Positions 19,774-30,833 of a DNA stretch of 64,000 nt are shown piece after piece (the first letter of the stretch is position 1; each line of letters begins with the position of its first letter). This DNA is from an uncultured Phycicoccus sp. (lineage in GTDB: Bacteria; Actinomycetota; Actinomycetes; Actinomycetales; Dermatophilaceae), in NCBI RefSeq assembly GCF_947495705.1, contig NZ_CANLZR010000008.1:62001-126000 (forward strand), in the 5' to 3' direction. The notes below the pieces were generated by a model. That model was given only the letters and a program-made list of their open reading frames with translations, was not told the origin of the DNA and ran no database searches. The translations under genes were made by a program, and so were the position numbers.

Positions 19774-20712
19774 TCAGGCGGGCCGGGCGCCGACGTGCAC
19801 GTACTCCCCGTGCCGCGGCACGTCCCCGGTCTCGGCGAGGCGACGGGCGAGGACGAGGGCTCCGTCCAGCGCTCCGCCGACCGCCGGCCGCACCGCGGAC
19901 CCGGCGCCCGCCACGTGCGCCTCGAGCGCCGCCCACACCGGCCGGGCACCGAGCAGGCCGCCGGTGGCGACGAGGCGCGGCGCCTCGAGCCCGGCAGCCG
20001 CCGAGAGCAGCGAGTCCCCGAGCGCGGCACCTGCCGCGGCACAGATGCCGGCGGCGACCACGTCGCCGGCCTCGGCGGCCTCCGTGACCAGGGGCGCGAC
20101 CGAGGCGAGCACCTCTGGAGCGTCCGCACCGGTCATGACCCGCCGCGGCCAGGAGCCGACCGGGCCGAGCAGGGTGCCGGCGGCAGCCAGGACCGCCGCC
20201 GACCCGCCGCCCACACCGTCCCGGGCCCGCAGTGCCGCCCTGAGGCCCTCGAGGCCCACCCACGCCGCCGATCCCCGGTCGCCGAGGACGTGGCCCCAGC
20301 CGTCGACCCGGGCCCAGTGCTCGGCGAAGTCCGTGCCGAAGGCCACGGCCCCCGTCCCGGCGGCCACCACGGCCCCGGGCACGACCTCGCCGAGGGCTCC
20401 GACGAGGTTGGCGACGGCGTCGCTGACGACGGCCGTGCGACGGGCCCCGAGCGCCGACTCGACCGCAGCGAGCACCTCGGCCGGCTCGGACAGGAAGAGG
20501 AGCCCGCGCGTCGACCAGCAGAGCGCGTCCGCCGCCTCGACCCCCTCGGCGGCCAGGAGCGCCCGGGCGTCGGCAGCGAGGGCGCCGATGTCGATGCCGC
20601 CGGCGCCGACGCGCACCCCCGGGGCGCACCGCACCGGGCGCGGGCCCGCCCCGGTGTCGGTGACGAGCCGCAGCCCCGACCCCCCGACGTCGACCGCCAC
20701 GAGCGTGCTCAC
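19774..20712 (-). CDS. BadF/BadG/BcrA/BcrD-type amino-sugar kinase
   Basis: A 312-residue sugar kinase of the ASKHA fold. VAVDVGGSGLRLV (residues 5-17) is phosphate motif 1, VSDAVANLVGAL comes next, VVAAGTGAVAFGTD is the second phosphate motif, GWGHVLGDRGSAAWVGLEGL is characteristic of BadF/BadG N-acetylglucosamine kinases, and RLVATGGLLGARPVWAALEA is the adenosine motif. In this family Clostridium MurK phosphorylates both MurNAc and GlcNAc at O6. With MurQ and an ABC importer in the same array, the simplest reading is that this kinase makes MurNAc-6-phosphate for MurQ. That assignment is inference. The start is GTG 20710-20712, 13 bp after the permease gene. Confidence 0.85.
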   Translation of the reverse strand: MSTLVAVDVGGSGLRLVTDTGAGPRPVRCAPGVRVGAGGIDIGALAADARALLAAEGVEAADALCWSTRGLLFLSEPAEVLAAVESALGARRTAVVSDAVANLVGALGEVVPGAVVAAGTGAVAFGTDFAEHWARVDGWGHVLGDRGSAAWVGLEGLRAALRARDGVGGGSAAVLAAAGTLLGPVGSWPRRVMTGADAPEVLASVAPLVTEAAEAGDVVAAGICAAAGAALGDSLLSAAAGLEAPRLVATGGLLGARPVWAALEAHVAGAGSAVRPAVGGALDGALVLARRLAETGDVPRHGEYVHVGARPA

Positions 20713-20725
20713 GGCCGTGAGCCGA

Positions 20726-21652
20726 TCACTTGGCCATGCCCGCGGTCAAGCCCGCGACGATCTGCTTCGTGGCGACGAGGAACAGGACGATGAGCGGGAT
20801 CGTCGTGATGACCAGCCCCGCGAAGACCGCCGAGAAGTTCGTCGCGTTCTCGCCGAAGAACTGGGTGAGCCCGACGGGCAGGGTGTACTTCGCATCGTCG
20901 CGCAGGAGGACGAGCGGGAAGAGGAAGTCGTTCCAGATCGGCACGAACCGGAAGACCGCGACCGTCGCCACGGCGGGCTTGACGAGCGGCACCATGATGC
21001 GCCAGAACGTCTGCCAGGTGGACGCCCCGTCGAGCACCGCGGCCTCCTCGAGCTCGCCCGGCAGCTGCCGGAAGAACGTCGTGAGGACGAAGATCGAGAA
21101 CGGCACCCCGGACGCGCCGTACATCAGGGCCAGGCCGAGCCGGGAGTCGATGAGGCCGACCCCGTCGAAGAGGTAGAAGATCGGCAGGATCGCGAGGTGG
21201 ATGGGCAGCATCAGCCCGGACAGGAACAGCGACTCGAGCCACCGGAAGATGCGCGACCGGCCCCGCGCGAGCGCGTACGACGCCATCGTCGCGACCGTCG
21301 TCGACAGCACGACCGCGCCCAGGGTGACGGCGAGGCTGTTGCCGAAGTACGTGGCGAAGTTCCCCGTCGTCCACGCCTCCCGGTAGGAGTCGACCGACAG
21401 CGGCCACGGCGCTCCGAGCGGGTCGGAGATGAGGTCGCCGTTGCTGCGGAACGAGCTGCTGACCATGAGGACGAGCGGGATGAGCGCCAGAGCCGCGTAC
21501 GCCCACAGCGCGACGCTCGCGGTGGCGCCACCGACGGGCTTCCGGCGCCGGCGCGGCCTGCGCGAGGGCCCACTGGGCCTGCCGGGCGGGGTCTCGACCG
21601 GGACCTCGACGGCCTCGTCGGCGGTGCCGACCCCGGCGGGGACGACGCTCAT
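20726..21652 (-). CDS. ABC sugar transporter permease (MalG type)
   Basis: A 308-residue CUT1-class permease. After a polar Arg/Pro-rich N-terminal 40 residues come six helices. The cytoplasmic EAA loop reads EEAAVLDGASTWQTFWRIMVPLVKPAVATV (about 212-241), the contact point for the ATPase. It ends VATKQIVAGLTAGMAK, a typical MalG C-terminus. It overlaps the partner permease gene by 4 bp. Together with the binding lipoprotein and the MalF-type subunit it forms an importer for what context says are cell-wall sugars. No ATPase gene is in the array, so a shared MsiK-type ATPase must serve it. Confidence 0.92.
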   Translation of the reverse strand: MSVVPAGVGTADEAVEVPVETPPGRPSGPSRRPRRRRKPVGGATASVALWAYAALALIPLVLMVSSSFRSNGDLISDPLGAPWPLSVDSYREAWTTGNFATYFGNSLAVTLGAVVLSTTVATMASYALARGRSRIFRWLESLFLSGLMLPIHLAILPIFYLFDGVGLIDSRLGLALMYGASGVPFSIFVLTTFFRQLPGELEEAAVLDGASTWQTFWRIMVPLVKPAVATVAVFRFVPIWNDFLFPLVLLRDDAKYTLPVGLTQFFGENATNFSAVFAGLVITTIPLIVLFLVATKQIVAGLTAGMAK

Positions 21653-22548
21653 GTCGTGATCCTCCGCTCGTGGCGGCGCAGGACGGCGGTGGCGGCGTAC
21701 GCCCCTCCGAAGATGAGCAGGAACAGCAGGGTCGCCAGTGCCGACGAGGTGCCGATGGCGTCGGTGGCCCCGGAGTCGAAGGCGGTCCGGTAGAAGAGCA
21801 GCGAGATGAAGTCGGTGGCGCCGGCCGGGTTGCCGGTGGACCCGCCGAAGGCGTAGGGCAACGCGAACGCCTCCATCGCGAAGATGAACGTCAGGACGCT
21901 CACGGTGCCGATGGCGGGCACGAGCAGCGGGAAGGTGATCCGCCGGAACGCCTGCACGTGCGAGGCCCCGTCGACGCGGGCGGCCTCGGTGAGCTCCTCG
22001 GGCACCCCGCCGAGGGCGGCGCCGTAGAGCAGGACGGGGAAGCCGATCCACTGCCAGACACTGACGAGGATGACGACCCAGAGCGCGGTGTCGGGGTCGC
22101 CGAGCCAGGGCAGCGCCCACGACTCGAGCCCGACCTTCGTGAGCAGGGTGTTGACCGGCCCGAACGTCGGCGACAGCAACAGGGTCCACAGGTAGCCGAT
22201 GACGATGGGGCTCACGAGGTACGGCATCGCGTACAGGGTCTGGAGCAGGCGGCGGGACCGGTCGCGGCGGTGGAGCAGGAAGGCGATGGTGAGGCCGACG
22301 GTGTTCTGCACGGCCATCGTCCCGAGGAAGAACGCGACGTTGTGCCACAGCGCGCGCGGGAGGTCGGTGGTGAACGGGGCGCGGGTGAACAGCGCCGTGA
22401 AGTTCGTCAGCCCCGAGAAGCCCCCGCGGCTCGTGCCCTGCCACTCGTAGAAGGCGTACGAGAACGCGGTGAGCATCGGGTAGAGGACGAACACCCCGAA
22501 CAGCGCGAGGGCGGGGGTGAGGAAGAGGAGTCCGGTGCGTCGGCTCAT
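21649..22548 (-). CDS. ABC sugar transporter permease (MalF type)
   Basis: A 299-residue CUT1 permease with six helices, beginning LLFLTPALALFGVFVLYPMLTAF, which is typical of UgpA/MalF-like subunits. Its EAA loop is EELTEAARVDGASHVQAFRRITFPLLVPAI (about 178-207). ATG 22546-22548 is the start. It is separated from the binding-protein gene by 113 bp holding a large hairpin, and overlaps the second permease by 4 bp. Confidence 0.92.
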   Translation of the reverse strand: MSRRTGLLFLTPALALFGVFVLYPMLTAFSYAFYEWQGTSRGGFSGLTNFTALFTRAPFTTDLPRALWHNVAFFLGTMAVQNTVGLTIAFLLHRRDRSRRLLQTLYAMPYLVSPIVIGYLWTLLLSPTFGPVNTLLTKVGLESWALPWLGDPDTALWVVILVSVWQWIGFPVLLYGAALGGVPEELTEAARVDGASHVQAFRRITFPLLVPAIGTVSVLTFIFAMEAFALPYAFGGSTGNPAGATDFISLLFYRTAFDSGATDAIGTSSALATLLFLLIFGGAYAATAVLRRHERRITT

Positions 22549-22590
22549 GTCATCGCCAGGGGGGTCGGGACTCGGGGAGTCGTGGCGGTC

Positions 22591-22652
22591 ACCACCGGTT
22601 CACCCGGCGGCCGGGCGTCGGGCGCGCCGGCCGCCGGGGGTGCTCCGGTGGT
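22591..22652 (-). other. Large intercistronic stem-loop between binding protein and permease genes
   Basis: ACCACCGG (22591-22598) pairs with CCGGTGGT (22645-22652). After a small internal bulge, CACCCGGCGGCCGG (22601-22614) pairs with the region 22627-22642, leaving a loop of 12 nt. About 22 base pairs in all, no U-tract. Hairpins at this place in sugar ABC operons (malE-malF is the classic case) lower permease expression relative to the binding protein by stabilising the upstream message or partly terminating. That role is inferred here. Confidence 0.6.
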
Positions 22653-22661
22653 GCGGACGGG

Positions 22662-23951
22662 TCAGGACGCGGGCTGGAACCAGGTCTTGACGCCCTTGTC
22701 GAGCTCGGCGCTCACCTGCTCGGCGGTCTTGCTGCCGAGGAACAACTCCTGGACGCCCTTGCCGAGCAGGTCGGTGCCCGACGGGGAGCCGTACCGGAAG
22801 TCGGTGAGCAGGAGGTAGGACGAGCCGCGGTCGTCGAGGTCGGCGGCGACCTGGGCGAGCACCGGGTCGGAGTAGGTGACACCCGGCACCGCCGAGATCT
22901 GCTTGATCTCGTCGGCGACCATCTGGCCGAACTCCGGGGTCGCCATCCACGTCACGAGCTCGGTCGCGGCCTCCTTGTCGGGGGAGGCGGCGTTGACGGC
23001 GAAGTTGCCGTCGGCCCACGCGGCGGTGGTGGCATCCGACCCGCTCGGCGAGCCCGGCGGCGGGGGCACCTGGAAGACCCCCAGGTCCATCTCCGGGTTG
23101 GCGGTCTGCAGGGTCGCGAGGTCGAAGGAGCCGCCCGGGTACATCGCGGCCTGACCGGAGCTGAACAGGGTCATCGCGTCGGTGACGGCGACCCCCGTGA
23201 CGCTCTTGGGCATGTACTTCTCGAGGTCCCCGAGCACATCGACCGACGCGACCCAGTCGGGGTCGGTGAAGTCGGTCTCGCCCGACGCGACAGCGTCCTG
23301 GAACTGGCTGCCGCCGAACCGCGGGGCCGCGAGGACCTCGTGCACGATCGGCAGGGTCCAGTCGTCCTTGGCCCCGACCGCGAGGGGGGTGATGTCCTTC
23401 GCGAGGAACGCCTCGTTGGCGGCGATGAACTCGTCCCAGGTCGTGGGGACGTCGACACCGTGCTCGGCGAACAGTGCCTTGTCGTAGAACAGGACGGTGG
23501 CCTGGCGGGCCAGCGGCACCGAGTAGAGCTTGCCGTCCTCCTTGCCCCGCGCGCCGGCGACGATGCCCTCGTCCCACGCGGACAGGTCGACGGCGTCGTC
23601 GAGCGGCATGAGCGCGCCGGAGGCCACGGTGGTCTGGAGCCCCCCGTAGGACCGCACCTGCGGCACGTCCGGGCCGTCGGAGCCGGCGAGCCCCGTGGCG
23701 AGGATCTTGTTGTACTCGGTGGCCTTGAACGGCTTGAACTCGACGGTGACGCCGGGGTGGGACTGCTCGTAGGCGTCGAAGATCTTCTCGTAGGCGGCCT
23801 TGTCCTCGACCCGCCAGGACCAGACGGTCAGCGTGGTGTCGCCGTCGCCGCCGCCGTCCCCGGTGTCGGCCGAGGGGGCGCAGGCGGCGAGGGCGAGGGC
23901 ACCGGCACCCAGGGCGAGTGCGGCACGGAACCGGGTGGTACGGGCTGTCAT
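22662..23951 (-). CDS. ABC transporter sugar-binding lipoprotein
   Basis: A 429-residue extracytoplasmic solute-binding protein (SBP family 1). The signal peptide ends in the lipobox LAAC, with lipidated Cys24, followed by a Gly/Asp linker. Then comes LTVWSWRVEDKAAYEKIFDAYEQSHPGVTVEFKPF, the usual first domain of CUT1 binding proteins. VPLARQATVLFYDKALF and TTWDEFIAANEAF are also typical. Its gene overlaps murQ by 4 bp, so it is translated with it. The likely ligand is a MurNAc- or GlcNAc-containing sugar, from context only. Confidence 0.9.
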   Translation of the reverse strand: MTARTTRFRAALALGAGALALAACAPSADTGDGGGDGDTTLTVWSWRVEDKAAYEKIFDAYEQSHPGVTVEFKPFKATEYNKILATGLAGSDGPDVPQVRSYGGLQTTVASGALMPLDDAVDLSAWDEGIVAGARGKEDGKLYSVPLARQATVLFYDKALFAEHGVDVPTTWDEFIAANEAFLAKDITPLAVGAKDDWTLPIVHEVLAAPRFGGSQFQDAVASGETDFTDPDWVASVDVLGDLEKYMPKSVTGVAVTDAMTLFSSGQAAMYPGGSFDLATLQTANPEMDLGVFQVPPPPGSPSGSDATTAAWADGNFAVNAASPDKEAATELVTWMATPEFGQMVADEIKQISAVPGVTYSDPVLAQVAADLDDRGSSYLLLTDFRYGSPSGTDLLGKGVQELFLGSKTAEQVSAELDKGVKTWFQPAS

Positions 23952-24958
23952 GCGGGGTCTCCTGTCGGGACATGGGCCAGGGCCCGGGGGTTCTGCGGGG
24001 CGGTGGCCCCGGTGCTGCGGGAGTCGGTGCGGGTGTCATCGTGCCCCGAGGACGGGCGACGGATGGCCGTCAGCGCCCGGGCAACCGACCCGTCGCAGGT
24101 CTCCAGCACGGAGCGGGCCAGCGCGACGTCCACCTCGGCGAGCACGCTGACGAGGGCGGGCTTCAGCTCGCCGTCGGAGGCCTCCAGCGCGGCCCGGGCG
24201 GCGTCCTCGGTCGCGCCGGTGGCTTCGCGCAGGATCCGCACGACGCGCCCGCGCAGCTTGGCGTTCGTCGCGACGACGTCGACCATGAGGTTGGACCAGG
24301 TCCGGCCCCGGCGGATCATCACGGCGGTCGAGAACGCGTTGAGGAGCATCTTCTGGGCGGTGCCGGCCTTGAGCCGGGTGGAGCCGGTGATGACCTCCGC
24401 GCCGGTGTCGACCGCGAGGACGTGGTCGGCCAGCGGAGCGAGCTCGGCAGCCGGGTTGGCCGTGAGCAGGGCGGTCACCGCGCCCCGCTCACGGGCGAGG
24501 GCGAGCGCACCACCGACGTACGGGGTCCGGCCGGAGGCGGTGAGGCCGACCACGACGTCGCCCCCGCCGACGACATCGAGGTCGGCCCGGCCCTGGTCGG
24601 CGTCGTCCTCGACGTTCTCGACGGCGCGCAGGATGGCCTCGGCGCCTCCGGCGTGGTGTGCGACGACGAGTCCGGGGGGTGCGTTGAAGGTGGGGAGGAG
24701 CTCGGCGGCGTCGAGGACGGCGAGACGGCCGGAGGTCCCCGCCCCGACGTAGTGGATGGTGCCGCCGGCCTCGACGGCCGAGACAGCGGCGTCCACGAGG
24801 GCGGCGAGCACCGGCAGGACCTGCGCGACCGCGGGGGCCACGAGAGCGTCCTCCCGGTTGATGAGGCGGAGCACGTCGAGGGTGTCGAGGGCGTCGATGC
24901 CCGTCGTCCCGGGATGGCGCTCCTCGGTGGGGGCGCTGACGCTCGCCTCGGTGTTCAC
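23948..24958 (-). CDS. murQ: N-acetylmuramic acid 6-phosphate etherase
   Basis: A 336-residue SIS-domain lyase that splits the lactyl ether of MurNAc-6-phosphate, giving GlcNAc-6-phosphate and D-lactate. HYVGAGTSGRLAVLDAAELLPTF (69-91) is the family's signature; GLTASGRTPYVGGAL and NPAAELAPLADHVLAVDTGAEVITGSTRLKAGTAQKMLLN are the remaining substrate-site segments. The C-terminal helical domain has the usual MurQ form, and the last 30 residues are an extra polar tail. The start is GTG 24956-24958. A good promoter ends only 8 bp before it, so the message from it would be leaderless. It overlaps the binding-protein gene. Confidence 0.95.
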   Translation of the reverse strand: MNTEASVSAPTEERHPGTTGIDALDTLDVLRLINREDALVAPAVAQVLPVLAALVDAAVSAVEAGGTIHYVGAGTSGRLAVLDAAELLPTFNAPPGLVVAHHAGGAEAILRAVENVEDDADQGRADLDVVGGGDVVVGLTASGRTPYVGGALALARERGAVTALLTANPAAELAPLADHVLAVDTGAEVITGSTRLKAGTAQKMLLNAFSTAVMIRRGRTWSNLMVDVVATNAKLRGRVVRILREATGATEDAARAALEASDGELKPALVSVLAEVDVALARSVLETCDGSVARALTAIRRPSSGHDDTRTDSRSTGATAPQNPRALAHVPTGDPA

Positions 24959-24965
24959 CCGGTCG

Positions 24966-24994
24966 ATGTTACTTTCCTACAGCACTGGAGTCAA
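24966..24994 (-). promoter_or_regulatory. Promoter of murQ and the transport genes, probably leaderless
   Basis: On the minus strand TTGACT (24989-24994) and TAACAT (24966-24971) are 17 bp apart, a good sigma-A-type pair. Transcription would begin at or next to the murQ GTG (24958). The spacer contains GTAGGAAAG, which together with the -10 resembles part of operators of RpiR-family regulators. The rpiR gene ends at 25004, 10 bp further up. Confidence 0.55.
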
Positions 24995-25003
24995 TGGCGT
25001 GAA

Positions 25004-25885
25004 TCAGTAACGGACATGGTGGCCGGCGACCGCCTGCCGGGTGCTCTCGACCGCGGACTCCGCCCGGGCCAGGTCGTGCTGGGCGACGGCGATGTAGAGG
25101 CAGTCCACGACGGTGAGGGCCGCGATGCGGCTCGCCGTGGCACCGGAGCGCAGGCTCGACTCGCGGGCGGCCGTCGCGAGGACGAAGTCCGCCCCCGCCG
25201 CCAGCCGTGACACGGGGAAGTTCGTGATGGCGACCGTCGTCGCACCGCGGCTCTTCGCGAGCGCCAGCGCCTCGACGGTCTCGGTCGTCGTCCCCGAGTG
25301 CGAGACACCGATGGCGACGTCGCCGGGGCCGAGCAGCGTGGCGCTCGTGAGCGCGATGTGCGGGTCGTTCCAGGCGAACACCACCGAGCCGATGCGGTGC
25401 AGCTTCTGCTGGAGGTCCATCCCGACGAGCGCACTCGCCCCGATTCCGTAGACGTCGACCCTCCCGGCCGCGGCGATCGCGGCGGCCGTGGCCGAGAGCG
25501 CGCCCCGGTCGATGGTCTGGGCGGTCTCCTCGACGGCGCTCGCGTCGGCGAACGCCACCTTCGTGATGACGTCGTCGACGGTGTCGTCGGCGCTGATGTC
25601 GGTGGTCGGCGCCGCCGAGACCCGCTGCCCCGTCCCGGCCTCGGCCAGGGCGAGACGCAGCTGCGGGTAGCCGCGCAGCCCGAGCCGCTTGCAGAACCGC
25701 AGCACCGTCGTCTCCGAGGTCGACGCCGTGACGGCGAGCTCGGAGATGGTCAGCGCCGACGCCGCCCGTGGGTCGGCGAGCACCTGCTCGGCGACCCGGT
25801 CCTCTGCGGGCGACAGCGAGGGGCGGAGCCCGCGGATCCGCACGAGCAGGGGCGGGGCCGCGTCGGGCGCGGGACTGGAGGCCAT
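25004..25885 (-). CDS. RpiR-family transcriptional regulator (MurR-like)
   Basis: A 293-residue regulator. Residues 10-85 are the RpiR helix-turn-helix domain (LSPAEDRVAEQVLADPRAASALTISELAVTASTSETTVLRFCKRLGLRGYPQLRLAL). From about 115 on is a SIS sugar-phosphate-binding domain (VDVYGIGASALVGMDLQQKL; GVSHSGTTTETVEALALAKSRGATTVAIT). MurR of E. coli and YbbH of Bacillus are homologues next to murQ that sense MurNAc-6-phosphate. Location between the hydrolase genes and murQ makes it the obvious local regulator. ATG 25883-25885 is preferred to an in-frame start 29 codons upstream, because that lies inside the previous gene. It follows that gene by 10 bp. Confidence 0.88.
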   Translation of the reverse strand: MASSPAPDAAPPLLVRIRGLRPSLSPAEDRVAEQVLADPRAASALTISELAVTASTSETTVLRFCKRLGLRGYPQLRLALAEAGTGQRVSAAPTTDISADDTVDDVITKVAFADASAVEETAQTIDRGALSATAAAIAAAGRVDVYGIGASALVGMDLQQKLHRIGSVVFAWNDPHIALTSATLLGPGDVAIGVSHSGTTTETVEALALAKSRGATTVAITNFPVSRLAAGADFVLATAARESSLRSGATASRIAALTVVDCLYIAVAQHDLARAESAVESTRQAVAGHHVRY

Positions 25886-25895
25886 GCGGTCAAAC

Positions 25896-27617
25896 CTAGG
25901 CGTCCGGACCCAGCAGGCTCCACCCATCGGCCTCGAACGCGCCGGGTCCCTTCTCGCCGTCGAGCACGACACCGGCCCCGGAGGTGGCCTTCACCCCGTC
26001 GACGACGACACCCCGGCCCAGGTACAGCCCGTCGGTCGTCATCCGCCAGCGGACGAGCAGGTCGCCGGCCGGGAGCTCCGCGCGGACCTGGGTCCAACGG
26101 CGCTGGAAGGTGCCCGAGACGGTGCCGTCGGACTCGACGGTCTCGCCCCGGTCCCGCACCGAGAACGGCTGCGCCGTCCACGTGGACCCGCCGTCGGTCG
26201 AGGTCTCGAGGGTCAGGACGTCGCTCGCCTCGGTGTCGAGGAGGAGGTCGAAGCCGAGCCGCGCCCCGCCCTCGGGCACCTCGGCCGGGGCCGTGAGGGT
26301 GGCGGTCGTCGCGTTCACGCCACCGGCGTACCAGGCGGAGTCACCGTGCTTCGGGGTGATCGGCATCGCTGCCGCGAGGCCGTGGGCCCAGTCGCGGCGT
26401 GCCGGGTTGTTGCTGCCCCAGCTGCGCGAGGGGTGGACCCGGTTGGTCAGCAGGATCGCGAACGAGCGGCTGTCGAAGTCGATGACGATCGAGGTCCCGG
26501 TGTACCCGGTGTGTCCTGCGGTCCGCGGCCCCGACAGCGCGTCCATGTACCAGCGCTGGTCCAGCTCGAAGCCGAGGCCGTGCGCGTCACCGGGGAACGC
26601 CTCGGTGAAGTTCGTGATGAGCAGCTCGACGCTGCGCCGGTCGAGGATCCGCTGCCCGTCGTAGGCGCCGCCGTTGAGCAGGGCCTGGGCGAGGATCGCG
26701 AGGTCGTCGGCGGTCGAGAAGACGCCGGCGTGCCCGGCGACCCCGCCGAGCGACCAGGCGTTCTCGTCGTGCACCTCGCCCCGGACGAGCCCGCGCGGCG
26801 GCGTGGACTGGTACTCGGTGGCGGCCGTGCGCTCCCGGTCCTCGGGGTTGTAGCCGGTGTCGGCCATCCCGAGCGGGGCCGCGATCTCGGCGTGCACCAC
26901 CTCGTCGAGGCCCTTGCCGGTGAGCCGCTCGACCAGGACACCGAGGGTGATGAGGTTGAGGTCGCTGTAGAGGTACGCGGAGCCGGGCGCGTTGCGCAGG
27001 GGCTGGTCCATGACGGCCTGGATCCGGGACGCCTCGTCGGGGTAGCGGCTGTACAACGGCAGCCAGGAGGTGAACCCCGACGTGTGCGTGAGCAGCATCC
27101 GGACCGTGACGGACTCCTTGCCGTTCGCCGCGAACTCCGGCAGGTACGTCGCCACCGGCGCCTCGAGGTCGACCCGCCCGTCCTCGACGAGCTGGACCGT
27201 GGCGATGGACGTGAACAGCTTGCTCACCGAGGCGAGGTCGAAGATCGTGTCCTCGCGCATCGGGACCCACTCGTCGCGGGGCAGCTCGGTGCTCGCGTCC
27301 TGCCAGCGCACCGCGTGGCCGCTGGCGTGCCGAGCGACGACCGTCCCGTCGTGGCCCATGACCCCGACGGCGCCGGAGTACATCGGGTGGCCACCCTCGG
27401 GCGCCACCTCGTACCCGGCGACGCGTTCCGCGGCCGCCTCGATCGGGGCGGGGTCGAGCCCGACGTCCCGTGGGGAGCCGTCGCGCAGCATCGTCGAGGC
27501 GGGCATGAACCCCTTCTCGGGTCGGTCGAAGTCGTGGGCCGCGGCCGGTGCGGCGCCGGCGACGCCGGACACGACGACGCCGGCCACGGCCACCGCTGCC
27601 AGGGCCCGGCGGGTCAC
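25896..27617 (-). CDS. Secreted serine beta-lactamase-fold hydrolase (AmiE/YbbE-like)
   Basis: A 573-residue exported protein. After the signal peptide (residues 1-28, ending APAAA) comes a class C beta-lactamase-type domain to about residue 420. The SxxK motif is S130-V-S-K133, the YxN motif is YSDLN, and HTGYTG stands for the KTG/HxG motif. The last 150 residues form an extra beta-rich domain (WYAGGVNATTATLTAPAEV; VLTLETSTDGGSTWTAQPF). In the Bacillus ybb operon the same family member, AmiE, removes peptides from MurNAc, letting NagZ and NamZ act. Here it sits between namZ and the regulator, which supports the same job. The start is GTG 27615-27617, overlapping the namZ stop by 4 bp. Confidence 0.85.
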   Translation of the reverse strand: MTRRALAAVAVAGVVVSGVAGAAPAAAHDFDRPEKGFMPASTMLRDGSPRDVGLDPAPIEAAAERVAGYEVAPEGGHPMYSGAVGVMGHDGTVVARHASGHAVRWQDASTELPRDEWVPMREDTIFDLASVSKLFTSIATVQLVEDGRVDLEAPVATYLPEFAANGKESVTVRMLLTHTSGFTSWLPLYSRYPDEASRIQAVMDQPLRNAPGSAYLYSDLNLITLGVLVERLTGKGLDEVVHAEIAAPLGMADTGYNPEDRERTAATEYQSTPPRGLVRGEVHDENAWSLGGVAGHAGVFSTADDLAILAQALLNGGAYDGQRILDRRSVELLITNFTEAFPGDAHGLGFELDQRWYMDALSGPRTAGHTGYTGTSIVIDFDSRSFAILLTNRVHPSRSWGSNNPARRDWAHGLAAAMPITPKHGDSAWYAGGVNATTATLTAPAEVPEGGARLGFDLLLDTEASDVLTLETSTDGGSTWTAQPFSVRDRGETVESDGTVSGTFQRRWTQVRAELPAGDLLVRWRMTTDGLYLGRGVVVDGVKATSGAGVVLDGEKGPGAFEADGWSLLGPDA

Positions 27618-28921
27618 TTCGTGGGCCCCGGGTAGATGAGGTACTGCTGCCGGGTGCGCTCGAACGCGGCGAGCTCGTCCTGCCACGCGGCGACGACGTC
27701 GTCGGCCGAGGCGCCGGCGTCGACCATCTCGCGCAGCCGCTGCGACCCGGTCAGCTTGTCGACCCAGTACGGACGCTTGGTGTCCCAGCTGTCCTTGCGC
27801 CAGGCGAAGTCCGAGTACAGGGCCTTGGCGGCCACGAGCATCTCGGCTCCGAGCCGCGGCCCGTCGACCGCCCGCGGGTCTGCGACGTGCACCTGGACGC
27901 CCCCGCAGACCTTGCCGGCGTGCTTGCTGAAGGTCGGGTTGAAGTACGCCTCCCGGACCTGCACCCCGGGGATGTCGCGGCCCGCGAGCCGCTCGGCCCA
28001 GCGGTGGTCGACGAACGGCGCCCCGACGAGCTCGAACGGCCGGGTGGTCCCCCGCCCCTCGGACAGGTTCGTGCCCTCGAACAGGCAGGTCCCGGGGTAG
28101 ACGAGCGCGGTGTCCGGGGTCGGCATGTTCGGGCTGGGCATGACCCAGGGCAGGTCGGTGCCGGCGTGGGTGACGTCGCGGCGCCAGCCTTTGACCTCGA
28201 CGACGTCCAGGCGCTGCAGGCGCGCACCCTCGTCGCCCTCGAGGAACTCGCCCTCGAAGAAGCGGGCGAGCTCACCGACGGTCATCCCGTGCGCCTGCAC
28301 GATCTCCTTCGCGCCCACCCCCGAGGTGAACGGTGTCGTCATCATCGGCCCGCGCGCGATGCCACCGACCGGGTTCGGACGGTCCAGGACGACGAAGTCG
28401 GCGCCGGCCCGGACCGCGGCCCGCATCGCCGTGTACATCGTCCAGATGTAGGTGTAGAAGCGCGCCCCGACGTCCTGGATGTCGAAGACCACGGTGTCGA
28501 CGCCCGACTCGCGGACCATCCGGGTCATCGTGTCGACGCCCGCCCCGTAGGTGTCGTAGACGGTGACCCCGGTGCGCGGGTCGGTCTGGGTCTCCTCGGC
28601 CTCCCCGGCCTGGGCCGTGCCGCGGAAGCCGTGCTCGGGCCCGAACACCGCACCGACGTCGACCGAACCCGAGGCGACCATCTCGTCGACGATGCTGTGG
28701 AGGTTCGTCAGGATGCCGGTGGGGTTGGTGACGACGCCGACCGTGCGGCCCGAGAGCACGCTCCAGCCGCCGGCGGCGGCCCGGTCGGCGCCGGGGGTGA
28801 CCGGCCGGCTGGGCATCGGGCTCGAGCCGGTGGCCCAGGCGGCCGGGGCGGCCGCGACGGCGGTGGCGGCCGCCCCGACGGCGGAGGCGGCGAAGAGCTG
28901 GCGGCGGTCCATACGGGTCAT
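27614..28921 (-). CDS. namZ: Exo-beta-N-acetylmuramidase NamZ (DUF1343)
   Basis: A 435-residue DUF1343 protein, the family shown in Bacillus subtilis (NamZ/YbbC) to release MurNAc from the non-reducing end of peptidoglycan fragments. The N-terminus has a twin-arginine motif (DRRQLFAAS) followed by a hydrophobic stretch ending AAWA, so it is probably Tat-exported. Family segments: GRTVGVVTNPTGI, VFGPEHGFRGTAQAGE, VYDTYG, VVFDIQDVGARFYTYIWTMY, LDRPNPVGG, MPSPNMPTPDTALVYPGTCLFEGTNLSEGRGTTRPFELVGAPF. It follows nagZ by 25 bp and overlaps the hydrolase gene by 4 bp. Confidence 0.92.
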   Translation of the reverse strand: MTRMDRRQLFAASAVGAAATAVAAAPAAWATGSSPMPSRPVTPGADRAAAGGWSVLSGRTVGVVTNPTGILTNLHSIVDEMVASGSVDVGAVFGPEHGFRGTAQAGEAEETQTDPRTGVTVYDTYGAGVDTMTRMVRESGVDTVVFDIQDVGARFYTYIWTMYTAMRAAVRAGADFVVLDRPNPVGGIARGPMMTTPFTSGVGAKEIVQAHGMTVGELARFFEGEFLEGDEGARLQRLDVVEVKGWRRDVTHAGTDLPWVMPSPNMPTPDTALVYPGTCLFEGTNLSEGRGTTRPFELVGAPFVDHRWAERLAGRDIPGVQVREAYFNPTFSKHAGKVCGGVQVHVADPRAVDGPRLGAEMLVAAKALYSDFAWRKDSWDTKRPYWVDKLTGSQRLREMVDAGASADDVVAAWQDELAAFERTRQQYLIYPGPTK

Positions 28922-28946
28922 CTGTGATCTCTCCTCGAGGGACGGG

Positions 28947-30758
28947 TCAGTAGCCGAGGCCGAAGCCGTAGGGGAACAGGACGGTGTTGGGGTCCCCCGC
29001 GACCGGGATGTCGACGGGCAGCGTGCCGGTGGGCGTGACCTCGCCGGCGATGACGCGCGCCACGGCCTCGATGGCCACCGGGCTGTAGCTGTAGGTGGCG
29101 AGGTAGGTGGGGGCGTCGCCGAGGTAGGCGATGTCGTAGGGGTCCCGGGTCGCGACGACGACGACGGGCACGCCGGTGTCGCGCAGGGCGGCCACGAGCT
29201 TCTGCTGGCCGGCCCGCTTGTCGGTGACCCTGGTGTCCCAGGCCTTCATCGTCGTGACGACCACCGCGTCCCGGCCCGCCGCGGCGGCCACGGCGTCGGC
29301 GATCTGGGCGTCGGTGGGCGAGGTCCCGGTCTGGCGCACCGTCGTCGTCGCGCCGTGCCGCTGGAGCCCGGCGGCGAGGGTGGCCGTCGTCGACACCCCG
29401 TAGCCGGCGACGAGGACGTCGGCCCCCGGCAGGCTCATCGGCAGGACGCCGTCGTCGTTGCGCAGCAACGTCGTCGTCCGGTCGGTGATGGCCGCCGCCG
29501 CCGCGAGGTGCTCGGGGGTCCCGACGACGTCGTCGAGGGCGTCGGGGTCGGCGAACGCCTCCTCGACGAGGCCGCGGCGCGCCTTGAGGGTGAGGACCCG
29601 GCGGACCTTGGCGTCCAGCTCGGACCGGTCGATGCGCCCGGTCTCGACGGCGTCGACGATGGCGGCGAAGGCGTCCTCGAGGGCCGGCGACATGAGCAGC
29701 TGGTCGGCACCGGCGAGCAGGGCGCGCACGGCGACCTCGGCGTCGCCGTACCGGTCGCGCACACCCTGCATCTCGAGGGAGTCGGTGATGATGACGCCCT
29801 CGAAGCCGAGCTCCTCGCGCAGGACCCCGGTGAGGATCGGGCGGCTGAGGGTGGCCGGGTCGCCGGAGTCGTCGAGCGCCGGGAAGGCCAGGTGCGCGGT
29901 CATCACCATGTCGATCCCGGCGGTGATGGCGGCCTGGAAGGGCGGCGCGTCGAGCTGCTCCCACTCCGCCCTGGAGTGCGTGATGACCGGGAACGCGACA
30001 TGGCTGTCGGTGGCGGTGTCGCCGTGCCCGGGGAAGTGCTTGGCCGAGGCCATGACCCCGCCGTAACCCTGGTACCCGGCGACCTGGGCCGCGACCATCG
30101 CGGCCGCGAGGTCGGGGTCGGACGAGAACGACCGGGTGCCGATGACCGGGTTGAGCGGGTTGACGTTGGTGTCGGCGACCGGAGCGAAGTTGGTCGTGAT
30201 GCCCATGGCCCGCAGCTCCTGGCCGGTGATGGCGGCGGCGGTGCGGGCGTCGTCGGTGCTGCGTCCGGCGCCGAGGGCCATCGACCCGGGGAACTGGGTG
30301 GCGGGCGGGCCGATCCGGGTGACGACTCCCTGCTCCTGGTCGACGCTGAGCGTCAGCGGGACACGCACCTTGGAGTCGCGGCGGCCCAGCGCCGCCTCCT
30401 GGAGGCCGTTGCTGAGCCCGGTGATCTGCTCGGGGTTCTTGACGCTGTCGGTCCACGCGAAGTAGATGACGCCGCCGAGCGCGTACTTCTGCACGATCTC
30501 GGCGGGCGTCGCGAGCCCGTAGAGCGGCACGTTGCGCGCGTCGGGGGTGCTCGCGTCGCTGCCGTAGACCTGCTGGACGAACAGCTGCCCGATCTTCTCG
30601 TGCAGGGTCATCCGGGCCATCGTCGACGTGACCCATCCGTGGACCCGCCCGTCGTCGGGCCGGCGCCCCGTGGCGGAGGCTGCGGGGGCGCTCGCGCCGG
30701 CGAAGGCCAGGGCGAGGGAGCCGGTGAGCGCGGTGCGTCGGGAGAGCGTCCAGGTCAT
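28947..30758 (-). CDS. nagZ: Exported beta-N-acetylglucosaminidase (GH3)
   Basis: A 603-residue glycoside hydrolase family 3 enzyme of the two-domain NagZ type found outside Gram-negatives. A twin-arginine signal (LSRRTALTGS) leads. The catalytic domain has the NagZ motif AKHFPGHGDTATDSH (239-253), whose Asp-x-His dyad acts as acid/base, and IITDSLEMQGV with the nucleophile Asp. The C-terminal GH3 domain follows (VLVAGYGVSTTATLAAGLQ; VVATRDPYDIAYLGDAPTYL). It removes non-reducing GlcNAc from muropeptides and chitobiose-like sugars outside the membrane. ATG 30756-30758 is behind GGAGGA. It is the first gene of the array and has its own promoter with a palindromic operator. Confidence 0.93.
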   Translation of the reverse strand: MTWTLSRRTALTGSLALAFAGASAPAASATGRRPDDGRVHGWVTSTMARMTLHEKIGQLFVQQVYGSDASTPDARNVPLYGLATPAEIVQKYALGGVIYFAWTDSVKNPEQITGLSNGLQEAALGRRDSKVRVPLTLSVDQEQGVVTRIGPPATQFPGSMALGAGRSTDDARTAAAITGQELRAMGITTNFAPVADTNVNPLNPVIGTRSFSSDPDLAAAMVAAQVAGYQGYGGVMASAKHFPGHGDTATDSHVAFPVITHSRAEWEQLDAPPFQAAITAGIDMVMTAHLAFPALDDSGDPATLSRPILTGVLREELGFEGVIITDSLEMQGVRDRYGDAEVAVRALLAGADQLLMSPALEDAFAAIVDAVETGRIDRSELDAKVRRVLTLKARRGLVEEAFADPDALDDVVGTPEHLAAAAAITDRTTTLLRNDDGVLPMSLPGADVLVAGYGVSTTATLAAGLQRHGATTTVRQTGTSPTDAQIADAVAAAAGRDAVVVTTMKAWDTRVTDKRAGQQKLVAALRDTGVPVVVVATRDPYDIAYLGDAPTYLATYSYSPVAIEAVARVIAGEVTPTGTLPVDIPVAGDPNTVLFPYGFGLGY

Positions 30759-30795
30759 GCTTCCTCCGGGTGTGACTCGTTCACAGCGTTGTGGG

Positions 30796-30833
30796 TCGGT
30801 ACGTAACTTAGTCACGTACCGACGATCCGGCAA
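30796..30833 (-). promoter_or_regulatory. nagZ promoter overlapped by a 27-bp palindromic operator
   Basis: On the minus strand TTGCCG (30828-30833) and TAAGTT (30805-30810) are spaced by 17 bp. The interval 30796-30822 is a palindrome with 13-bp arms, TCGGTACGTAACT and AGTCACGTACCGA, around a central T, with one mismatched pair. It covers the -10 and half of the spacer, where a repressor would block polymerase. The centre is AT-rich and has no tight loop, so it fits an operator better than a terminator. The array's RpiR protein is the first candidate to bind. Confidence 0.65.

Follow-up and report, generated by a model that had tools for sequence, protein, structure and literature searches.

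A row of nine genes on the minus strand of a 64-kb stretch of DNA from an uncultured Phycicoccus sp. (the window, meaning the whole stretch that was analysed) probably forms a complete unit for scavenging peptidoglycan sugars, in which an ATP-binding cassette (ABC) importer would bring in N-acetylmuramic acid (MurNAc), and a sugar kinase and the MurNAc-6-phosphate etherase MurQ would process it. Most likely, a MurNAc-importing ABC system and this kinase together stand in place of the phosphotransferase system (PTS). The ligand is most likely free MurNAc, with larger MurNAc pieces being possible, and it need not be free MurNAc in every lineage.

Judged from the protein families, NagZ would remove N-acetylglucosamine (GlcNAc) and NamZ would remove MurNAc outside the cell, where an AmiE-like hydrolase would strip the peptide from MurNAc. 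A sugar-binding lipoprotein (SBP) would capture MurNAc and hand it to two permeases, powered by a shared MalK/MsiK-type ATPase presumably coded elsewhere. Inside, the BadF-type kinase would make MurNAc-6-phosphate and perhaps GlcNAc-6-phosphate, MurQ would cut D-lactate off MurNAc-6-phosphate, and the GlcNAc-6-phosphate formed would pass to NagA and NagB. Importer and kinase would jointly do the job that MurP does alone in the Bacillus operon. The regulator RpiR, probably sensing MurNAc-6-phosphate, would repress one promoter via a palindrome before nagZ.

Gene content of the operon

The nine open reading frames, read from the window's frame list and translations, are intact and run from 30758 to 19774; families were assigned with Pfam and NCBIfam profiles. 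The first gene, nagZ (28947..30758, 603 amino acids), encodes a GH3 exo-beta-N-acetylglucosaminidase (PF00933, E = 7e-89) that keeps KHFPGHGDTATDSH, which we take to be the motif of GH3 N-acetylglucosaminidases. It is followed by namZ (27614..28921, 435 amino acids), coding for an exo-beta-N-acetylmuramidase (DUF1343) with matches to NamZ_N (E = 7e-71) and NamZ_C (E = 1e-55), and by a gene for a serine hydrolase of beta-lactamase fold (25896..27617, 573 amino acids; PF00144, E = 5e-69). The top NCBIfam model of this hydrolase is PBP4B (YfeW), reached with 174 bits and under the cut-off of 385, and its fold family and context suggest that it is probably AmiE-like (a MurNAc-L-Ala amidase). All three proteins have signal-like N-termini, in which arginine pairs are followed by hydrophobic, alanine-rich stretches. 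Next come rpiR (25004..25885, 293 amino acids), a MurR/RpiR-type regulator with HTH_6 and SIS domains, and murQ (23948..24958, 336 amino acids), which scores 358 bits with PRK05441 (cut-off 168) and 298 bits with TIGR00274, slightly under the cut-off of 302, and is the sole full-length match in the whole genome.

The transport part starts with the SBP gene (22662..23951, 429 amino acids), whose product belongs to SBP_bac_1 and carries a lipobox (LAAC, Cys24) and the signature SWRxED. Permease 1 (21649..22548, 299 amino acids, MalF/GlcT-like) and permease 2 (20726..21652, 308 amino acids, MalG/GlcU-like) are CUT1-type proteins with BPD_transp_1 domains. The last gene encodes a BadF-type sugar kinase (19774..20712, 312 amino acids; BcrAD_BadFG, E = 9e-14), a probable MurK in which Asp98 is taken as the catalytic aspartate. 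An SBP_bac_1 lipoprotein with two MalF/MalG-type permeases is the hallmark of CUT1 importers. No ATPase gene was found among the operon's nine genes; CUT1 operons often come without their own ATPase where a shared one serves. Because of the signal-like N-termini and the lipobox, NagZ, NamZ, the hydrolase and the SBP would be expected outside the membrane. From nagZ to the kinase gene, the intergenic distances are 25, -4, 10, 45, -4, 113, -4 and 13 bp, the overlap of 4 bp between murQ and the SBP gene included. The first-pass annotation had described this gene content on the minus strand with 4-bp overlaps or short gaps, and this description holds, with intact frames and agreeing Pfam and NCBIfam names.

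Elsewhere in the genome, two MalK-type OB domains (OB_MalK) over cut-off were found, which could belong to an ATPase shared with the importer. The genome also codes for a NagA-like protein, which with 163 bits misses the cut-off of 226, for NagB (225 bits, slightly under its cut-off of 237) and for AnmK. Candidates for all remaining steps of the route are thus available, with the MalK-type domains, the NagA-like protein and NagB.

Conservation within the order

A murQ search in 149 genomes of the order identified 57 places with at least 190 bits in 52 genomes, and the 56 loci other than the window's own were taken with up to 10 kb on each side. The SBP family adjoins murQ in six of these 56 loci. 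Kinase and rpiR are found in all six, nagZ and namZ in three, and the hydrolase within 7 kb in four; three loci carry the whole array and the other three its core of murQ, SBP, permease 1, permease 2 and kinase. As the same array occurs gene for gene in relatives, it is not an arrangement by chance.

A direct search with the SBP, which uses no murQ, found orthologs (E 1e-60 or better) in nine of the 149 genomes. All nine have murQ, compared with 43 of the 140 genomes that lack the SBP (Fisher p = 4.7e-5, kinship not corrected). In eight of the nine, murQ adjoins the SBP gene (in genome G137, murQ is cut by contig ends). In genome G097, the SBP gene has as neighbours, instead of murQ, rpiR, a frame resembling namZ and a hydrolase frame that is truncated at the contig end.

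Conservation beyond the order

Named genomes were scanned with an alignment of seven SBPs, which gave 135 relatives, and the counts given here refer to the best 80 of them. Six of the seven aligned proteins had been found via murQ, so this set is not blind; the direct SBP searches in the order and in a 396-genome sample of the phylum are independent of murQ. Among the 80 relatives, murQ was present at the locus in 58 and within 250 bp in 45. Ten of the 22 loci without murQ are cut by contig ends and 12 are not, and 19 of these 22 genomes have a murQ of at least 240 bits elsewhere (16 of the 22 over the family cut-off; that of G163 is cut by a contig end), with G160, G167 and G170 showing short SIS matches only and no fuller murQ. 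In a subset of 59 loci, the SBP gene is flanked on each side by at least 5.5 kb of sequence. Within 8 kb, these contain rpiR in 48 cases, murQ in 47, the hydrolase in 43, the kinase in 33, namZ in 28 and nagZ (at least 600 bits) in 25.

Hosts of the SBP family belong to Actinomycetota, Chloroflexota and Bacillota. They comprise Phycicoccus, Terrabacter, Knoellia and Janibacter (about a quarter of the 80), Microbacterium, Agromyces, Microbispora, Planotetraspora, Nakamurella, Anaerolineae and Pseudalkalibacillus/Alkalihalobacillus. Three Bacillaceae loci (L166, L167 and L169) combine the enzymes of the ybb operon with this ABC system and a BadF kinase, in the order hydrolase, nagZ, namZ, then rpiR, second hydrolase, SBP, permease, permease, BadF kinase (101-112 bits) and murQ; an additional murQ precedes rpiR in L166 and L169.

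In the even phylum sample of 396 genomes, at least six SBP matches at E 1e-90 or better were found (four candidates were scored per genome). All five SBPs above 550 bits, from the window and genomes G021, G210, G226 and G391, have murQ adjacent, the window and G021 being also part of the order sample. The sixth match (G468, 316 bits) has no murQ beside the SBP gene and lies on a 9.5-kb contig. The neighbourhood search that the first-pass annotation had proposed thus shows murQ, CUT1 permeases and BadF kinase recurring together in relatives. That annotation had also held that the array should be conserved, and this is borne out by the whole array in same-family relatives and by murQ-SBP-permease-permease in other families and phyla.

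Some unusual arrangements were observed among the relatives. An Anaerolineae frame (L144:9824-12367) is an apparent fusion of two SBP copies, scoring 856 bits as a whole frame and, by profile, 651 bits in its best domain. In a Bacillota locus, a 596-amino-acid frame (L168:12181-13968) lies between two permease genes. Two Streptosporangiaceae loci without murQ near the ABC genes (L180 and L175) have murQ elsewhere, beside a frame that is namZ-like by eye from its start.

Transporters accompanying murQ and the kinase

In the order, 24 murQ loci have a kinase within 7 kb. This ABC system is found in six of them, a sodium-solute symporter (PF00474, assigned on the L041 copy) in 11, another ABC system alone in one and none of these in six; two of the 11 symporter loci also carry the other ABC system. 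This ABC system and the symporter occurred together in none of the 24 loci. The six other ABC loci of the order also have no SSF1-type symporter within 7 kb of murQ, and in the window's operon the ABC genes occupy this position, the symporter search not extending to the remainder of this genome. MurT of Tannerella forsythia belongs to the sodium-solute symporter superfamily (PMC5790795). The best hint to MurNAc as the cargo of this ABC system is that the same kinase-etherase pair goes either with it or with a MurT-like symporter. The symporter counts do not include SSF2 (L068), a second symporter that looks PutP-like.

No match to PTS_EIIC (PF02378) was found in the window's genome, which is 100% complete, the other PTS families not having been searched. 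Eight genomes were tested for PF02378, of which the window's, G108, G122, G017 and G112 are without a match and G066, G067 and G021 have one. Within 7 kb of murQ, no PTS gene of at least 60 bits was detected in the 56 loci of the order (four queries, of which the L192 query was on the wrong strand).

Kinase

When a profile of 32 ABC-linked kinases was compared with solved structures, the MurNAc/GlcNAc kinase 8zo3 came first (3.5e-49), followed by hexokinase 2e2n (1.2e-42), the probable GlcNAc kinase 1zc6 (5.8e-34) and human-type NagK entries (1.4e-22). Entries 8oqw, 8ow9, 8oqk and 8ow7, which we take to be T. forsythia kinases, matched at 6e-11 to 2e-9. The operon kinase is on these grounds a probable MurK-type MurNAc kinase. 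MurNAc/GlcNAc kinase, the label of this best solved match, also describes the Clostridium acetobutylicum MurK, which accepts both MurNAc and GlcNAc (PMC5790795). In T. forsythia MurK, Thr94, which precedes the catalytic Asp95, is one of two positions important for MurNAc, the other being Ser133-Leu135, and kinases related to it have polar residues at the Thr94 position, mostly Asn (PMC10465942). The corresponding residue is Ser97 in the window kinase, whereas it is Asn in 8zo3 before the aligned catalytic Asp and in three of the 32 ABC-linked kinases, the Bacillaceae ones. Since the MurNAc/GlcNAc kinase 8zo3 has Asn, the serine is only suggestive.

The first-pass annotation had proposed ABC import and a BadF kinase instead of the PTS, and comparative genomics strongly supports this proposal through the murQ linkage across phyla, the lack of a PTS_EIIC match and the kinase profile leading to a MurNAc/GlcNAc kinase. 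It had further proposed import of both GlcNAc and MurNAc. Import of MurNAc is the likely part of this claim, and import of GlcNAc by the same system is a possibility only.

Binding protein

The motif SWR(T/V)ED is present in all 86 family members above 500 bits in loci L034-L169 (two genomes counted twice), as WSWRTED in 41, WSWRVED in 39 and SWRTED in six. It is missing from 4g68, the best solved relative of the SBP. The SWRxED loop presumably touches the sugar, by analogy with maltose-binding protein. The top NCBIfam model of the SBP is NgcE (TIGR03851), with 79.1 bits against a cut-off of 399.65; no NCBIfam model reaches its cut-off for the window SBP, and 46 aligned relatives match the same distant models. 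A cluster with a characterised importer of an unrelated sugar, which the first-pass annotation had named as a finding that would speak against its proposal, was not seen, NgcE lying far under its cut-off and the solved relatives being all distant, as judged from profile scores and not from a tree. The window's genome holds no other NgcE-like match at E 1e-20, the SBP itself being the sole one with 78 bits.

The chances are about even that these proteins make up a MurNAc importer family of their own. Its mark would be SWRxED directly behind the first strand, and the arginine of this signature, Arg47 in the window SBP, would bind the lactyl carboxylate that MurNAc has and GlcNAc lacks. Such a family would represent a third route besides MurP and MurT and would have replaced the PTS even in ybb-type operons of Bacillaceae.

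Alternative explanations

Several observations weigh against import of MurNAc by this system and its processing by the kinase and MurQ. Of the 59 well-covered loci, 12 lack murQ at distances up to 8 kb from the SBP gene. Next to the ABC genes, no BadF kinase was found in Streptosporangiaceae, Anaerolineae and further loci such as L118 and L163-L165. In L164, a PTS-like gene (348 bits) occurs at a distance of about 4.9 kb from the SBP gene. Genome G017 (L035), of the same family, keeps nagZ-namZ-hydrolase-rpiR-murQ with no importer or kinase after them and has no SBP ortholog at E 1e-60 elsewhere. In G067, a second SBP-permease set (L241) occurs with kinase and rpiR and without murQ in the 18 kb examined; it is possibly a paralog with another substrate. 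When the window kinase was compared alone, hexokinase 2e2n (2e-12) came slightly ahead of 8zo3 (2.9e-12), a near tie. Finally, by eye, signal peptides seem to be absent from the hydrolase (335-377 amino acids) of the Microbacteriaceae checked and from NamZ of L122 and L140, although their hydrophobicity scores overlap with those of the secreted proteins. As a separate observation, G017 carries elsewhere an NgcE that exceeds the cut-off with 648 bits, together with a BadF kinase that scores less (127 bits).

The apparent lack of these signal peptides leads to the foremost alternative, namely that the importer takes a larger MurNAc-bearing fragment (MurNAc-peptide or a MurNAc/GlcNAc disaccharide) that is cut in the cytoplasm. 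This alternative is rather unlikely. Since hydrolase and NamZ seem to lack signal peptides there, larger MurNAc fragments may enter in Microbacteriaceae, and CUT1 importers usually take oligosaccharides. However, signal-like N-termini are seen on both enzymes in the window as well as in the checked relatives from its own family, from Streptosporangiaceae and from Bacillaceae (for NagZ, two Bacillaceae loci gave no clear answer), which means that free sugars should arise outside, and the window operon has no second, cytosolic NagZ.

An importer mainly for GlcNAc (or chitobiose), with MurNAc entering otherwise, is considered very improbable. NagZ would release GlcNAc, and a kinase acting on both sugars is known in C. 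acetobutylicum MurK (PMC5790795). In the well-covered loci, however, the SBP tracks murQ (47 of 59) more than nagZ of at least 600 bits (25 of 59), both within 8 kb. The SBP resembles NgcE weakly, in a genome without another NgcE-like match at E 1e-20, but its score is far below the NgcE cut-off, and murQ has no role for GlcNAc. An ordinary sugar importer adjoining a recycling operon by chance, to which the 12 loci without murQ and the second set in G067 could point, is extremely unlikely, since murQ and the SBP gene are neighbours repeatedly, in Bacillota, in Chloroflexota and across several Actinomycetota families, and overlap by 4 bp in the window.

Comparison with known systems

For this comparison, YbbC is taken to be NamZ, and AmiE to have a beta-lactamase fold. 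The operon shares with the ybb/mur operon of Bacillus a gene row of NagZ, NamZ, a serine hydrolase in the place of AmiE, a MurR-type regulator and MurQ, whereas the PTS transporter MurP (EIIBC) is replaced here by the lipoprotein, two permeases and the BadF kinase, and the gene order differs. In B. subtilis, the operon is murQRP-amiE-nagZ-ybbC and thus includes amiE, and the murQ operon of E. coli includes yfeW (PMC5061867). MurTKQ of T. forsythia likewise combines PTS-independent import with a MurNAc kinase and MurQ, here assigned by family, but it relies on the MurT symporter, whereas the present operon pairs an ABC system with hydrolases that are probably secreted. NgcEFG, importing GlcNAc/chitobiose, is also an amino-sugar ABC importer with a binding lipoprotein; the window SBP lies far below the NgcE cut-off and is linked to murQ. 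YejBEF-YepA of Agrobacterium is another type of ABC importer. It too imports peptidoglycan fragments, which in that case are muropeptides (PMC9790009).

The first-pass annotation knew of no described MurNAc ABC importer of this type, and likewise no CUT1-type MurNAc importer appeared among the open-literature papers listed, judged by titles and abstract starts, an earlier remark on ABC genes near murK being possible in subscription papers. Streptomyces coelicolor recycles MurNAc and has MurQ without a MurP ortholog (PMC5061867), and the authors of a 2026 mycobacterial study speculate that MurNAc crosses the inner membrane through an unknown transporter (PMC13041923); both papers leave the actinobacterial transporter open. 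The operon offers a concrete candidate with matched kinase and etherase, which, if true, would supply a missing piece in the recycling or consumption of cell walls by such bacteria. The family is uncommon in the phylum, with at least 6 matches at E 1e-90 in the 396 genomes, and so could not account on its own for Streptomyces or Mycobacterium.

Control region

A sigma-70-type promoter (TTGCCG-N17-TAAGTT; 30805..30833, minus strand) is predicted 47-75 bp upstream of nagZ and could serve the whole operon. By eye, a TTG box with TAAGTT or TAACTT recurs upstream of nagZ in relatives (L106, where the stretch starts inside the gene, is not covered). Between this promoter and nagZ, 14-26 bp upstream of the gene, lies the operator-like palindrome GTGAACGAGTCAC (30772..30784; consensus GTGAA-N3-TTCAC), which with up to one mismatch has a single copy in the window. 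It is a candidate operator for the RpiR/MurR-type regulator, and a single transcript from the predicted promoter, repressed by RpiR, would fit this arrangement.

Of 24 regions upstream of nagZ in relatives, 18 contain the palindrome with up to one mismatch, versus 2 of 480 shuffled regions, and 23 contain it with up to two mismatches, versus 16 of 480; L036/L093 and L037/L111 are each one genome counted twice, and the recurrence may reflect shared descent alone. In other families, the palindrome is mostly weak (at least two mismatches) or absent. It occurs exactly before namZ in Nakamurella (L163), and with one mismatch in L120, L125 and L132.

Other transporters near murQ

AnmK and a sodium-solute symporter were observed near murQ and a BadF kinase in L042-L044, L047, L049-L052 and L084 (also in L040 and L041), and these loci look like a MurT-like route in actinobacteria. 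A second type of ABC importer (SBP2) lies near murQ in 10 of the 56 loci of the order (L040, L041, L048, L054, L056, L061, L063, L065, L068 and L071), with a GH3 NagZ nearby in eight and AnmK nearby in eight of the ten. The SBP2 loops that were printed lack SWRxED, and NagZ of L068 has no obvious signal by eye. From its gene neighbours, the SBP2 system looks like an importer of GlcNAc-anhydroMurNAc.

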